Source: Candidatus Aminicenantota bacterium (GTDB lineage Bacteria; Acidobacteriota; Aminicenantia; Aminicenantales; Saccharicenantaceae). From it: 64,000 bases of DNA. The stretch spans positions 1-64,000 of the forward strand of contig JAGNLW010000004.1 of NCBI GenBank assembly GCA_017999365.1, read 5' to 3'. The notes under the pieces were generated by a model that saw nothing but the letters and a program-made list of their open reading frames with translations, did not search any database and had not been told where the DNA came from. Below are positions 45,780 to 50,995 of the stretch, piece after piece. A program made the translations under genes and the position numbers. Position 1 is the first letter of the stretch. The number at the start of each line of letters is the position of its first letter.

Positions 45780-46715
45780 TCACTTCGACGGGGGCAGGGC
45801 TTTCAGGGCCGCCGCCAGGGCCCCGAGGAGCTTCTCCCCCGCCGCCTCGGACCCGTCCGGGACGCGCATGGCCCCGCAGAGGACGCCGCCGACGCGGGCG
45901 ATGAACAGGCTCTGTCCGAAGCGGTTCCTGACCTTGTGCCAGTCCCCGGCCTTGGCGGCCTCCTGCTTGTCGGCCGCCAGGGCTTCGAGCAGCCGGGCCA
46001 GGGCCGCCTCGGCCTCGGCCTCGCCGCCCATGTCGATGAAGAACCCCTCCAGGTCCGGGCCGTCGCCGCGATAGGCGGCCACGTAGCCGTCGCGGAGGAA
46101 GGCATAGCCCATGACGTTGGACTTGATGTACTTCTCGCTGCGGGCGACCAGGCCCTCGGCCGGGAAGGCCCGGACGAGCCGGGGCAGGCCGGGGCCCGGG
46201 CCGATGGCCTTGGCGATGGCCGTCCCGAAGGCCTTGAGCGTCCTCCCCGTGTCCTCGCCCAGACCGAACGCGAGCAGCTTGACGTAGAAGCGGCCGGCCA
46301 GGAAGTTGAGGGATTCGCCTTCGAGGTAGTCGAGCTCGCCGACGCCCGACGGGGGGTTCTCCGGGTAGCGCTCGGAGCCGTAGATGCCGAAGGCGTTGAG
46401 CGGCCTGCCCATGTCGTAGATCTCGACCGTCAGGGTGGCCTTGGTCCCGGTTTTCTGGAGATCGGCGACGATGAGCTCGCGGAAGTCGTAGCTCAGATAG
46501 CTCTCGGCGGCCCCGTTGATGTACTCGAAGAGCGTCTCGGGGAAATAGGGCCGCGGCGCCTCCGACAGGGCCCAGCCCTCTAGCCGGGGCACGAGGGCGG
46601 CCAGCTCCGGGCTGGCCGGGCGCTCCTGGGCCGCGGCGGCACCCGCGACGAGGCCGCAGGCGGCCGCGAGGATGACGGCCAAAGCGATTTTATGGGGGGT
46701 TCCGGAAGTTCTCAT
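45780..46715 (-). CDS. Secreted DUF6599-like protein
   Basis: A 311-residue protein with a signal peptide (about 1-30). The mature part has LFEYINGAAESYLSYDFREL near residues 63-82, MGRPLNAFGIYGSER, and FVYKLLAFG-like segments, matching a widespread uncharacterised secreted family (DUF6599, named from memory). The ATG at 46715 has GGAGG 6 nt upstream; the GTG at 46730 is the alternative. The function is unknown. Confidence 0.78.
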   Translation of the reverse strand: MRTSGTPHKIALAVILAAACGLVAGAAAAQERPASPELAALVPRLEGWALSEAPRPYFPETLFEYINGAAESYLSYDFRELIVADLQKTGTKATLTVEIYDMGRPLNAFGIYGSERYPENPPSGVGELDYLEGESLNFLAGRFYVKLLAFGLGEDTGRTLKAFGTAIAKAIGPGPGLPRLVRAFPAEGLVARSEKYIKSNVMGYAFLRDGYVAAYRGDGPDLEGFFIDMGGEAEAEAALARLLEALAADKQEAAKAGDWHKVRNRFGQSLFIARVGGVLCGAMRVPDGSEAAGEKLLGALAAALKALPPSK

Positions 46716-46736
46716 GGTCGGCCTCCGCACGCGTTC

Positions 46737-46827: not shown

Positions 46828-47727
46828 ATGGCCGTGTCGCGCGTCGTCGTCGTCCGCAGCCCGCGGGCTTGGACCGCCGCGGGAGCGCCGGACCCGGCCG
46901 GCGTCGCCGCGATGCTCGGACGGGGCTTCGTCCGGCTCACCGGACGGGCCGACCCCGCCGCGGCCGTGGCTTCGCTCTTCTCCCCCGCCGACCGCGTCGG
47001 CATCAAGGTCAACGCCATCGGCGGCAAGGCCCTCAGCACCGGGCCCGAGGTCGCCCTGACCGTGGCGGCTTGGCTCCTCCAGGGCGGCGTGCCGGGCGCG
47101 AACATCGTCGTTTGGGACCGGACGTCGCGCGAGCTCCGCGACGCCGGCTACGCGGTCGGCGAAGGGAAGTACGGGATCCGGGTCCTCGGGACGGACGACC
47201 CCGACCAGGGCTACGGGCCCGATCTCGTCGCCCACCTCGGCGTCGGCAGCCTGTTCTCACGCATCCTGACCGGGGAGTGCACGGCTTCGATCAGCTTGGC
47301 CCTGCTCAAGGACCACGGCCTGGCCGGCCTCACGGCCGGCATGAAGAACTATTTCGGGGCCGTCCACAACCCGAACAAGTACCACGACGGCGGCTGCGAC
47401 CCTCACGTCGCCGAGGTCTTCGACGCCCCGCCCGTCAAGAGCCGCCACCGGCTGACCGTGCTCGACGCCTTGACCGTCCAGTACCACAAGGGACCCTCGT
47501 TCCATGCCCGCTGGGCGGCCAAGTACGGCGGCTTCGTCCTCGGCCTCGATCCGGTCGCCGTCGACAGCGTCGGCTGGTCGATCGTCGAAGGGCTCCGGGC
47601 CGAAGCCGGGCTGCCGTCCCTCGAGGCCGAAGGGCGCGCCCCGCGCTACCTGGCCACGGCCGCCCGGATGGGGCTGGGGACGGCCGATCCGGCCGCCATC
47701 GAGCGCGTCGAGGAGACGGTGACGTGA
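46828..47727 (+). CDS. DUF362 family protein
   Basis: A 299-residue protein without signal peptide. Family features are IKVNAIGGKALSTGPEVA, SLALLKDHGLAGLTAGMKNYFGAV near the middle, and FVLGLDPVAVDSVGW in the last third. Some DUF362 proteins carry 4Fe-4S ferredoxin motifs, but here only two isolated Cys residues occur, so no cluster is expected. The function of the family is unknown. Its stop overlaps the next start as GTGA, so it is coupled to the radical SAM gene. Confidence 0.88.
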   Translation: MAVSRVVVVRSPRAWTAAGAPDPAGVAAMLGRGFVRLTGRADPAAAVASLFSPADRVGIKVNAIGGKALSTGPEVALTVAAWLLQGGVPGANIVVWDRTSRELRDAGYAVGEGKYGIRVLGTDDPDQGYGPDLVAHLGVGSLFSRILTGECTASISLALLKDHGLAGLTAGMKNYFGAVHNPNKYHDGGCDPHVAEVFDAPPVKSRHRLTVLDALTVQYHKGPSFHARWAAKYGGFVLGLDPVAVDSVGWSIVEGLRAEAGLPSLEAEGRAPRYLATAARMGLGTADPAAIERVEETVT

Positions 47728-48845
47728 GGCGGCGGGCCTTTCTCCGCGGCGCGGCCGGGACCGGGCTGGCCCTCGGCGCCGGCCTGCCCTCGCTCTGCGC
47801 CCGCCTGGCGGCCGCCGCCCCGGCCGCCCGCCTCTCGCGCGTCGAGGCCCGGCACTACGTCAAGCTCCCCGACCGGGAGATCGAGTGCCGCCTCTGTCCC
47901 CGGCACTGCCGGCTCGGCGACAAGGAGCGCGGCTATTGCGGCGTCCGGGAGAACATCGGCGGCACGTATTACACGCTCGTCTACGGCAGGGTCTGCAGCC
48001 TCAACGTCGATCCCATCGAGAAGAAGCCGTTCTTCCATTTCCTGCCGGGCACGACGGCCCTGTCCCTGGCCACGGCCGGCTGCAACGTCAACTGCAAGTT
48101 CTGCCAGAACTGGGAGATCTCCCAGGCCCGGCCGGAGCAGATCGAGTCGATCGACCTGCCGCCCGCGGCCGCCGCGGCGCGGGCCGCCGCGGCCGGCTGT
48201 CCCTCCATCGCCTACACCTACAGCGAGCCGACCGTGTTCTTCGAATACATGGCCGACACGGCGATCGCCGCGCGCCGGCGCGGGGTCCGGAGCGTCGTCG
48301 TGACGGGCGGCCACATCGATCCCGAGCCCCTGGCCGAGCTCCTCGAGCTCGTCGACGCGGTCAAGGTCGACCTCAAGGGCTTCACCCAGGACTTCTACGC
48401 CTCCTTCGTCCGCGGCGACCTCGAGCCCGTCCTCCGGACCATTCGGACCGTGGCCAAGTCCAAGGCCTGGCTCGAGATCGTCTACCTCGTCATCCCCACC
48501 CTGAACGACCGGATGGACAAGGTCCGCGAGATGGCCCGCTGGGTCAGGGACGAAGCCGGCCCGGGCGTCCCCCTGCATTTCTCCCGCTTCCAGCCGATGT
48601 ACCTCCTCCGCAACCTGCCCCCGACGCCGGTCTCGACGCTGGAGGAGGCGCGGCGCACGGCCCTGGCCGAGGGCCTGAAGCACGTCTATGTCGGCAACGT
48701 CCCCGGTCACGAGGCCGAGGACACGCTCTGCCCCGGCTGCGGGGCCGCGGTCATCGCCCGGACGGGCTACCGGATCGACGCCTTCCGCCTCAAGAAGGGT
48801 ACCTGCGAACGATGCGGGACAGCCATCCCCGGCGTCTGGACCTGA
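47724..48845 (+). CDS. AmrS-like radical SAM enzyme with Tat-type signal
   Basis: A 373-residue protein from the GTG at 47724. The N-terminus is a Tat signal: RRRAFLRG followed by a Gly/Ala/Leu hydrophobic stretch to about residue 28. The radical SAM motif CNVNCKFC has Cys120, Cys124 and Cys127. Further Cys pairs at 55, 58, 62 and 72 (CRLCPRHC, then CGVREN) and a C-terminal zinc-ribbon-like pair (CPGCG and CERCG) are typical of the AmmeMemoRadiSam radical SAM family. No AMMECR1 or Memo gene is nearby. The product is unknown. A radical SAM protein with an export signal is odd. Confidence 0.88.
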   Translation: MRRRAFLRGAAGTGLALGAGLPSLCARLAAAAPAARLSRVEARHYVKLPDREIECRLCPRHCRLGDKERGYCGVRENIGGTYYTLVYGRVCSLNVDPIEKKPFFHFLPGTTALSLATAGCNVNCKFCQNWEISQARPEQIESIDLPPAAAAARAAAAGCPSIAYTYSEPTVFFEYMADTAIAARRRGVRSVVVTGGHIDPEPLAELLELVDAVKVDLKGFTQDFYASFVRGDLEPVLRTIRTVAKSKAWLEIVYLVIPTLNDRMDKVREMARWVRDEAGPGVPLHFSRFQPMYLLRNLPPTPVSTLEEARRTALAEGLKHVYVGNVPGHEAEDTLCPGCGAAVIARTGYRIDAFRLKKGTCERCGTAIPGVWT

Positions 48846-50995
48846 GGCCGGGCCTGCCGGCCTTCCTGCTGGGCTTTCTGGCCGCGTCCCTCCAGATTTA
48901 TCTCCTGCGGGAGTTCGCCGCCGCCTTCACCGGGAACGAGCTGACCTTCGGCCTCGTCCTCGGGTCCTGGCTGCTGTGGGGAGGGATCGGCAGCCTCGTC
49001 CGCCCGGCCCGGCCGTCGGCCGACGCGCCGGCGCGCCTGGCCCGGCTCTACGGAGCGGCCATCGTCCTCTTCTACGCCGCCCTCGCGCTCCTGCGGTTCT
49101 CGCACAAGCTCATGGGGCTCCTGCCCTCCGAAACCGCCGGGCTGGCCGCCGCCTTCGGCTTCGCCCTCGCCCTCACCGGCGTCCTGAGCTTCCCGCTCGG
49201 CCGGGCCTTCGTCCTCAACGCCCGGCTCGCGGACGGCGACGCGGCCAAGACCTACGTCCGCGAATCGGCCGGAGCGGCGGCGGCCGGGGTGGCCGTCCAG
49301 CTCCTCCTCGTCCCGCGCCTCACCAACTGGCAGGGCGCCGCCGCGGCGGGGGGGGCCGCCGCCTTGACGGCGCTCCTGGCCCTGAGGCCGCGGCGCGCCG
49401 CGGCGCCGCTCGCGGCCGCCCTGGCCCTGTCGGCCGGCCTGGTCCTGGCCGACCGCCCGGCCCTGGAAGCCGTCTGGCGGCCGTTCGAGTTCGTCGAGGC
49501 CGAGGACTCGCCCTACGGCCAGCTCGTCGTCGTCCGCGCGGCGGACCAGATGACGCTCTACGACAACGGCTTGGCCGTCTTCAGCCGCCCCGATCCCGGG
49601 GCCGCCGAGGACACCGTCCACTTCGCCCTGCTCCAGCGCGAGACGGCCGGCCGGGTCCTGCTCATCGGCGGCGCGGCCGGCGGCGCGGTCGAGGAGATCC
49701 TCAAATACCCGGGGGCGACGGTCGACGGCGTCGAGCTCGATCCGGCCGTCATCCGTCTGTCCCGGCGTCACCTGCCCGCGGCGGCCGTTGCGGCCCTCGA
49801 CGGTCCCCGCGTCCGTCTCTTCGCGCGGGACGGACGCAGCTTTCTCGAACGGGCCGCCGGGCCTTACGACGCCGTCCTCGTCGCCCTGCCCGACCCGGCC
49901 ACGACCCAGATCAACCGCTACTACACACGCGAGTTCTTTGCCGCCGTCAGGGCCAAGCTCGTTCCCGGCGGCGTGCTCGGTTTCACTCTGACCGGAGGCG
50001 AGAACTACGTCGGGGCGGCGGCCGCCCGGCTGCTGGCCTCGGTCGTCCGGGCCTTGGAGGAGGTCTTCCCCGGCGGCGTCCGCCTCGTCCCCGGGGACAG
50101 GGTCGTCGTACTGGCTTCGGACGGCCCTCTCACCGTCGACGCCGCGACGCTTTCGGCCCGGCTGGACCGGCTCGGTCTCCAGACGAGGCACGTCAGCCCC
50201 GCCATGTTGCCGTTCCGGCTCGATCCCGGACGCGTCGAGCGCCTGGAAAAGACCCTGGCGTCCGCGGGCCGGGAGGCCCGCGCCAACCGGGACCTCGTCC
50301 CGGTCAGCACGTACTTCCAGGCTCAGCTTTGGGCCAGCCAGTTCGCGGGCCCCGGCCGGGGCCTCGTCGACGCGGCGGCCGAGGCCGGTCCCTTTTGGCT
50401 CCTGGATCTGCCTCTGATCGCCGCGGCCGTCGTCCTCCTGGTCCTGGCCTCGGTCTGGAGAGGGTCGCCGGTCCGGTCCCTCGTCCCCGTCGCTGTCATG
50501 GGCTTCACGACCATCGTCGTCGAGGTGGCCCTGCTCATCGCCTTCCAGGCCAACTTCGGCTACGTCTACGGCAAGGTCCCCCTCCTGCTGGCCGCCTTCA
50601 TGGCCGGGCTCGTCGCCGGCGGGGCGCTCGGACGGCGCCGGAAACGGTCGGGGCGGGCCGACCTCGCGCTCGTCCAGGCCGGCTTCGTCCTCCTGCTCGC
50701 CGCGACCTACGCGACCCTGCGCGGCGCCGGCGGCGAGGCCCTGCCGTTCGTCCTGCTCGGCCTGTTCGGCCTGCTCGGCGGTTATCTGTTCGTCAGCGCC
50801 AACCGGCTCGTGATGCAGAGCCGGCCGCACCCGGGCCTCGCCTATGGCATCGACCTCGCGGCCTCGTTCGCCGGGGCGGTCCTGGCCGCCGCGCTGCTCA
50901 TCCCGCTCTTCGGGATGCCGGCCCTGGTCCTGCGGCTGGCCGTCCTCAACGCCCTCTGCGGCCTCTACCTCCTCGTCCTGGGCCGCACGGCCTGA
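48812..50995 (+). CDS. Membrane protein with spermidine-synthase-like domain
   Basis: A 727-residue protein overlapping the radical SAM gene by 34 nt. The first 200 residues hold about six membrane segments. Residues around 215-440 form a Rossmann-type SAM/aminopropyl-transferase domain: LLIGGAAGGAVEEIL, VDGVELDPAVI, and VLVALPDPATTQINRYY. Polyamine synthases have GGGDGG and DSSDP here, so catalytic residues differ. The last third again has about six segments. Such fused proteins are widespread and mostly uncharacterised. It is coupled to the DUF362 and radical SAM genes. Confidence 0.85.
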   Translation: MRDSHPRRLDLRPGLPAFLLGFLAASLQIYLLREFAAAFTGNELTFGLVLGSWLLWGGIGSLVRPARPSADAPARLARLYGAAIVLFYAALALLRFSHKLMGLLPSETAGLAAAFGFALALTGVLSFPLGRAFVLNARLADGDAAKTYVRESAGAAAAGVAVQLLLVPRLTNWQGAAAAGGAAALTALLALRPRRAAAPLAAALALSAGLVLADRPALEAVWRPFEFVEAEDSPYGQLVVVRAADQMTLYDNGLAVFSRPDPGAAEDTVHFALLQRETAGRVLLIGGAAGGAVEEILKYPGATVDGVELDPAVIRLSRRHLPAAAVAALDGPRVRLFARDGRSFLERAAGPYDAVLVALPDPATTQINRYYTREFFAAVRAKLVPGGVLGFTLTGGENYVGAAAARLLASVVRALEEVFPGGVRLVPGDRVVVLASDGPLTVDAATLSARLDRLGLQTRHVSPAMLPFRLDPGRVERLEKTLASAGREARANRDLVPVSTYFQAQLWASQFAGPGRGLVDAAAEAGPFWLLDLPLIAAAVVLLVLASVWRGSPVRSLVPVAVMGFTTIVVEVALLIAFQANFGYVYGKVPLLLAAFMAGLVAGGALGRRRKRSGRADLALVQAGFVLLLAATYATLRGAGGEALPFVLLGLFGLLGGYLFVSANRLVMQSRPHPGLAYGIDLAASFAGAVLAAALLIPLFGMPALVLRLAVLNALCGLYLLVLGRTA

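Follow-up and report, generated by a model that had tools for sequence, protein, structure and literature searches.

A recurrent DUF362, Tat-signal radical SAM and membrane PABS gene trio as a probable part of an exported AmmeMemoRadiSam system

The window, a 64-kb stretch of DNA (contig C5:1-64000) from a 2.8-Mb, 95% complete genome whose closest named relatives are Aminicenantes/Acidobacteriota, contains three overlapping genes (Table 1). They encode a DUF362 protein, a radical SAM enzyme of the AmrS type and SpmS, a membrane protein whose PABS domain resembles spermidine synthase. The GTG start of AmrS at 47724 shares the sequence GTGA with the DUF362 stop codon (TGA at 47725-47727), and the start of SpmS lies inside the end of the AmrS gene, an overlap of 34 nt. 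The original prediction had described both overlaps, an intact CxxxCxxC at residues 120/124/127 with extra cysteine sites, an RRRAFLRG Tat-type signal on the radical SAM protein, and membrane segments flanking an aminopropyltransferase-like domain that lacks GGGDGG and DSSDP; sequence and coordinates agree with it on each of these points.

Table 1. Features of the trio, its neighbour and related genes elsewhere in the source genome and in other loci
Feature	Position	Strand	Remarks
DUF6599 protein, divergent neighbour of the trio	45780..46730	-	PF20244, 155.5 bits; signal-like N-terminal segment
DUF362 protein	46828..47727	+	299 aa; PF04015, 61.4 bits; LarA-like fold (AF2 model)
AmrS-type radical SAM enzyme with Tat signal	47724..48845	+	373 aa; TIGR04337, 378.3 bits
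Twin-arginine signal region of AmrS (RRRAFLRG and hydrophobic stretch)	47727..47826	+	C-terminal limit approximate
CxxxCxxC radical-SAM cluster motif (C120, C124, C127)	48081..48104	+	From sequence; kept in exported and cytosolic AmrS
SpmS	48812..50995	+	727 aa; 7 TM, PABS domain, 7 TM; PF01564, 78.9 bits
PABS domain (spermidine-synthase-like, (dc)SAM-binding type), predicted periplasmic	49487..50251	+	Foldseek and positive-inside rule
Memo-AMMECR1 fusion	C2:1937-3376		480 aa; above both NCBIfam cut-offs
Tat-DUF362, then fused NapH-NapG-type polyferredoxin	C2:32054-34500 (L130:5055-7542)	- in L130	Source genome
CxxCH-bearing AmrS	L224-L228, L230-L234, L236		Motif in N-terminal part

The three genes recur together. 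Among 80 loci fetched from GTDB species genomes with the AmrS protein alone, about half of them from Aminicenantes, a DUF362 homologue lies within the fetched stretch in 70 and an SpmS homologue in 69; because these loci were found by AmrS only, the association goes beyond chance. The neighbourhood survey proposed with the original prediction thus finds DUF362 beside Tat-AmrS genes repeatedly. In Aminicenantes and Zixibacteria all three genes share a strand in the order DUF362-AmrS-SpmS, and SpmS has a convergent orientation in many Acidobacteria. The DUF6599 gene adjoins the trio in most Aminicenantes loci and lies near it in Zixibacteria (37 loci).

AmrS clears the TIGR04337 cut-off for the AmmeMemoRadiSam radical SAM enzyme (220 bits) and carries, besides the cluster motif, cysteine groups at 55/58/62/72 and 336/339/361/364. 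Its N-terminus reads MRRRAFLRG, and AmrS matches were found in all 60 relatives searched, in nearly all of them a full-length one starting at residue 1-3. Across 117 loci with an exported-type AmrS, a strict Tat pattern (RRx[FLIMVY] with a hydrophobic stretch) is met in 110, and three further proteins (L222, L237, L242) contain RR and miss the strict pattern. When the loci whose AmrS is cut by a contig end (L122, L123, L199) are left out, 114 homologues can be assessed and 113 of them retain the twin-arginine region, so that homologues starting after the signal region, which would have refuted the original prediction, are not what is found. The sole assessable protein without an RR signal is that of L103; its frame opens right at the core, possibly downstream of a frameshift. 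RR-bearing AmrS occur in at least six phyla (Aminicenantota, Acidobacteriota, Zixibacteria, Calditrichota, KSB1, Latescibacterota and others). Further, a second AmrS in the same genomes (AmrS2) begins directly at the catalytic core without a signal (11/11), and the source genome encodes TatC (226 bits). From the conservation of the signal and the presence of the translocase we infer that AmrS is a Tat substrate; no experiment supports export itself. In a free quick tree the exported AmrS do not form one clade; a constrained tree has the higher likelihood (p-AU 0.848), and a single origin is therefore not rejected.

AMMECR1 and Memo are indeed absent from the window, as originally noted, and both are coded elsewhere in the genome; that they are missing altogether is ruled out. 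The genome-wide search suggested at the time yields two Memo and two AMMECR1 domains, with one pair fused behind a signal. The signal-less set consists of a Memo on C1, an AMMECR1 on C4 and AmrS2 at C5:209 kb, and the exported-type set of Tat-AmrS and a Memo-AMMECR1 fusion whose N-terminus, MTHVLAAAVLLAALFPAQADG, is a typical Sec signal. The AMMECR1 and Memo partners of an AmmeMemoRadiSam system are present in the genome, including a signal-bearing fused pair. A Sec-type signal was found on 30/30 fusions from the source genome and its relatives, and on none of 11 stand-alone Memos or 11 AmrS2 proteins. In a widened set, 57/57 fusions bear a signal or anchor, as against 0/11 stand-alone Memos: hydropathy upstream of the core exceeds 1.8 in 55 of the 57 (and in 0/11 stand-alone Memos), and the two below this measure (L232, L235) have a signal or membrane anchor on inspection. 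A Memo-AMMECR1 fusion that bears a signal or lipobox also adjoins AmrS or DUF362 in Zixibacteria, Acidobacteria, KSB1 and Calditrichota. Human MEMO1 has H49, H81 and C244 as metal ligands (PMC11081632); the counterparts in Memo, H70, H102 and C246, are conserved, a correspondence drawn by motif and not by structure.

We then compared 139 genomes, all from the window's own phylum, in counts that are uncorrected for shared ancestry. An exported-type AmrS is present in 42, every one of which encodes the fusion, compared with 4 of the remaining 97; AmrS and the fusion are no more than 4 kb apart in 30/42. Evidence is partial for three of the 42 (contig ends truncate G140 and G182, and for G146 the fusion came from a follow-up search), and two high-scoring AmrS that lack a signal (G124, G062) were assigned to the cytosolic type after inspection. 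Two genomes, G066 and G102, have an exported-looking fusion (L197 and L196, respectively) and no exported AmrS; these may be remnants or have a different partner.

The AF2 model of SpmS (pLDDT 91.0) comprises 7 TM helices, the PABS domain and 7 more TM helices, 14 in all, and hhalign relates one membrane half to the other (96.9%, E 1.4e-10). Lysine and arginine amount to 19.3 per 100 residues in predicted inner loops and 4.7 in outer loops, with the same sense in 35/35 homologues, a distribution that places the PABS domain outside. The best Foldseek matches of this domain are the aminopropyltransferases 1uir/3anx. Like SpeE and the membrane form PRK03612, SpmS has a PABS fold and, in its family consensus, the glycine loop; unlike them, it holds the domain between two 7-TM halves, predicted outside, and has lost DSSDP. 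The window protein reads GGAAGG in place of GGGDGG and ALPDP in place of DSSDP (family consensus GGGxGG and NLPEP), and it scores only 127 of 472 against PRK03612, 74.8 of 249.55 bits against TIGR00417, and far below every spermidine-synthase equivalog model. Motifs and equivalog scores together rule out identification as the spermidine synthase SpeE, and a role as transporter or presenter of SAM is inferred.

SpmS might still be a true aminopropyltransferase, with the trio using decarboxylated SAM to make an envelope compound that is polyamine-like or aminopropylated. Its fold is nearest to the Thermus polyamine aminopropyltransferase, the family consensus keeps GGGxGG and the acidic residue before P, and the source genome has a SAM decarboxylase gene, so that the lack of one cannot be held against aminopropyl transfer. 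By contrast, the change of DSSDP to NLPEP/ALPDP makes polyamine-type substrate binding doubtful, and both the shortfall against the equivalog cut-offs and the predicted location outside the cytoplasm speak against this proposal, which we consider improbable; it does not exclude an exported system, with which it is compatible.

The DUF362 protein scores above the Pfam cut-off for PF04015. Its AF2 model (pLDDT 95.8) finds as best PDB folds the malate racemase Mar2 (7s91; E 4e-6, TMq 0.53) and LarA-like enzymes (9q3k, 9q3j), consistent with the placing of PF04015 in Pfam clan CL0471 together with LarA (DUF2088) (PMC11770544). It is like the LarA family in fold, but it is smaller and has no solved relative by sequence, none having been found in the PDB. 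The invariant or nearly invariant residues K161, D162, H163, K173, N174, K184 and H186 form a candidate active site on conservation grounds; they have not been mapped onto LarA, and use of the nickel-pincer cofactor is not shown. DUF362 proteins of the window and of Aminicenantes lack a signal; homologues from Acidobacteria, KSB1 and Calditrichota have a Tat signal. The source genome contains seven DUF362 genes (C2, two each on C4, C5 and C7), of which five have twin-arginine N-termini (C2, C4:443 kb, C5:99 kb and both on C7); the copy at C4:312 kb carries ferredoxin-type cysteines.

A candidate source of electrons lies beside the trio in Zixibacteria and some Acidobacteria, where a second DUF362 with a Tat signal (DUF362b) is accompanied by a polyferredoxin whose N-terminal half matches NapH and whose C-terminal half matches NapG. 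The source genome encodes the same pair on C2, and within its polyferredoxin an RR-hydrophobic segment precedes the NapG-like half. This protein resembles the NapH/NapG ferredoxin-type quinol dehydrogenase in matching both subunits but differs in being a single fused polypeptide, in its linkage to Tat-DUF362 and DUF6599, and in remaining below the NapG and NapH NCBIfam cut-offs (107.5 of 269 and 94.6 of 213 bits). In the phylum sample it is present in 31 of the 42 genomes with exported AmrS and in 9 of the 97 others (p 5e-14, again uncorrected for ancestry). DUF6599 also adjoins the NapHG/DUF362b module in 15 genomes of the phylum, which ties this module to the trio. Electrons usually enter NapGH-type chains from quinol, and its potential is too high to serve a radical SAM cluster.

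A second possible electron route is suggested by a CxxCH motif found between the Tat signal and the radical-SAM core in 11/11 AmrS of one Acidobacteriota clade; the window AmrS lacks it. These proteins meet the motif criterion for c-type cytochromes, from which attachment of heme is inferred. Because covalent heme c is formed only outside the cytoplasm, a CxxCH behind a Tat signal is independent evidence for location. A heme motif also suggests a role in electron transfer, and together with the lack of any known SAM outside the cytoplasm it could mean that exported AmrS no longer cleaves SAM and serves Memo-AMMECR1 as an Fe-S electron carrier or structural protein. This seems quite improbable to us, as the radical-SAM cysteines, the TYxEP region, D216/K218 and other core positions are conserved as strongly as they are in the cytosolic paralogue. 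The two types have C120/C124/C127 and some 50 other positions in common; T165/Y166/P169, D216/K218 and the cysteines of the N- and C-terminal parts are shared, and systematic differences are confined to two positions.

Taken together, the retention of RR, the signal-bearing Memo-AMMECR1 partner, the CxxCH sub-clade and the predicted outside position of the PABS domain support the envelope-facing, SAM-dependent pathway originally proposed, in which export is inferred and the product is unidentified. That proposal did not anticipate the AMMECR1 and Memo partners as a signal-bearing fusion, the second, cytosolic set or the candidate module for electron delivery. We consider it likely, from sequences and structure models, that the trio belongs to an exported AmmeMemoRadiSam system; export, extracytoplasmic SAM, substrate and product are inferred or unproven. 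For the extracytoplasmic location taken alone our confidence is high, with all of the evidence coming from sequence and models. That the RR-hydrophobic segment is vestigial or a mere anchor, holding an ordinary cytosolic copy at the cytoplasmic face of the membrane with cytosolic SAM, would suit the rule that SAM and ferredoxin are cytosolic and the signal-less DUF362 of Aminicenantes, but it is very improbable and ruled out as the main reading by the near-invariant RR motif and the independent Sec signals or anchors on all partner fusions examined, with the CxxCH clade, the predicted position of the PABS domain and the separate signal-less set already present in the same genome also against it.

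In the exported system that we favor, AmrS would fold with its [4Fe-4S] cluster in the cytoplasm before export by Tat, and the Memo-AMMECR1 fusion would be exported by Sec. DUF362 would work with both and, having no signal of its own in the window, may be carried along or remain cytosolic. The PABS domain of SpmS, which is of the (dc)SAM-binding type, would sit between the 7-TM halves at the outer face, and SAM would arrive there through or at SpmS. The likely electron source would be the NapH-NapG-type membrane polyferredoxin with its Tat-DUF362, and one AmrS sub-clade seems to bear a c-type heme of its own. Reduced from the membrane side, AmrS would cleave SAM, and the resulting radical would modify an envelope substrate or a partner, with the product processed further by Memo-AMMECR1 and the LarA-fold DUF362. 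This mechanism is unlikely to hold in its details. Its weakest points are the supply of SAM and the low potential that the radical SAM cluster requires. Against the exported system as a whole stand the lack of any SAM pool or radical SAM enzyme known to us outside the cytoplasm, the usual quinol start of NapGH-type chains, the signal-less DUF362 of Aminicenantes and the lack of correction for shared ancestry in the association counts.

All three AmmeMemoRadiSam components (TIGR04335/04336/04337) are above cut-off here and keep the conserved residues of AmrS, Memo and AMMECR1. The arrangement differs from the known system in the Tat signal on AmrS, in the fusion of Memo and AMMECR1 behind a Sec signal, and in the linked DUF362, SpmS and electron module; the function of the known system is itself unassigned, and the searchable literature assigns no biochemical activity to it. 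Searches of that literature, outside which most subscription journals fall, returned nothing relevant on exported radical SAM, Tat radical SAM, AmmeMemoRadiSam or Aminicenantes, and neither a SAM pool outside the cytoplasm nor a radical SAM enzyme in the periplasm is established there or, to our knowledge, elsewhere. The component families are known; the searchable literature contains no description of them in an exported, linked arrangement.

Radical SAM enzymes are assumed to work in the cytosol, since SAM and low-potential ferredoxin are found there. It is quite possible, if somewhat short of an even chance, that in several phyla SAM is available outside the inner membrane and serves a radical-SAM system that is complete on that side: SpmS would transport or present SAM, a membrane polyferredoxin or covalent heme c would be the reductant, and Memo-AMMECR1 and the LarA-fold DUF362 would be partners. 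If this is true, a conserved exported set of proteins would mean that SAM is used, and low-potential electrons are delivered, beyond the cytoplasm, and the AmmeMemoRadiSam proteins, relatives of human MEMO1 and AMMECR1 whose function is unknown, would gain a defined place, partners and testable cofactors.
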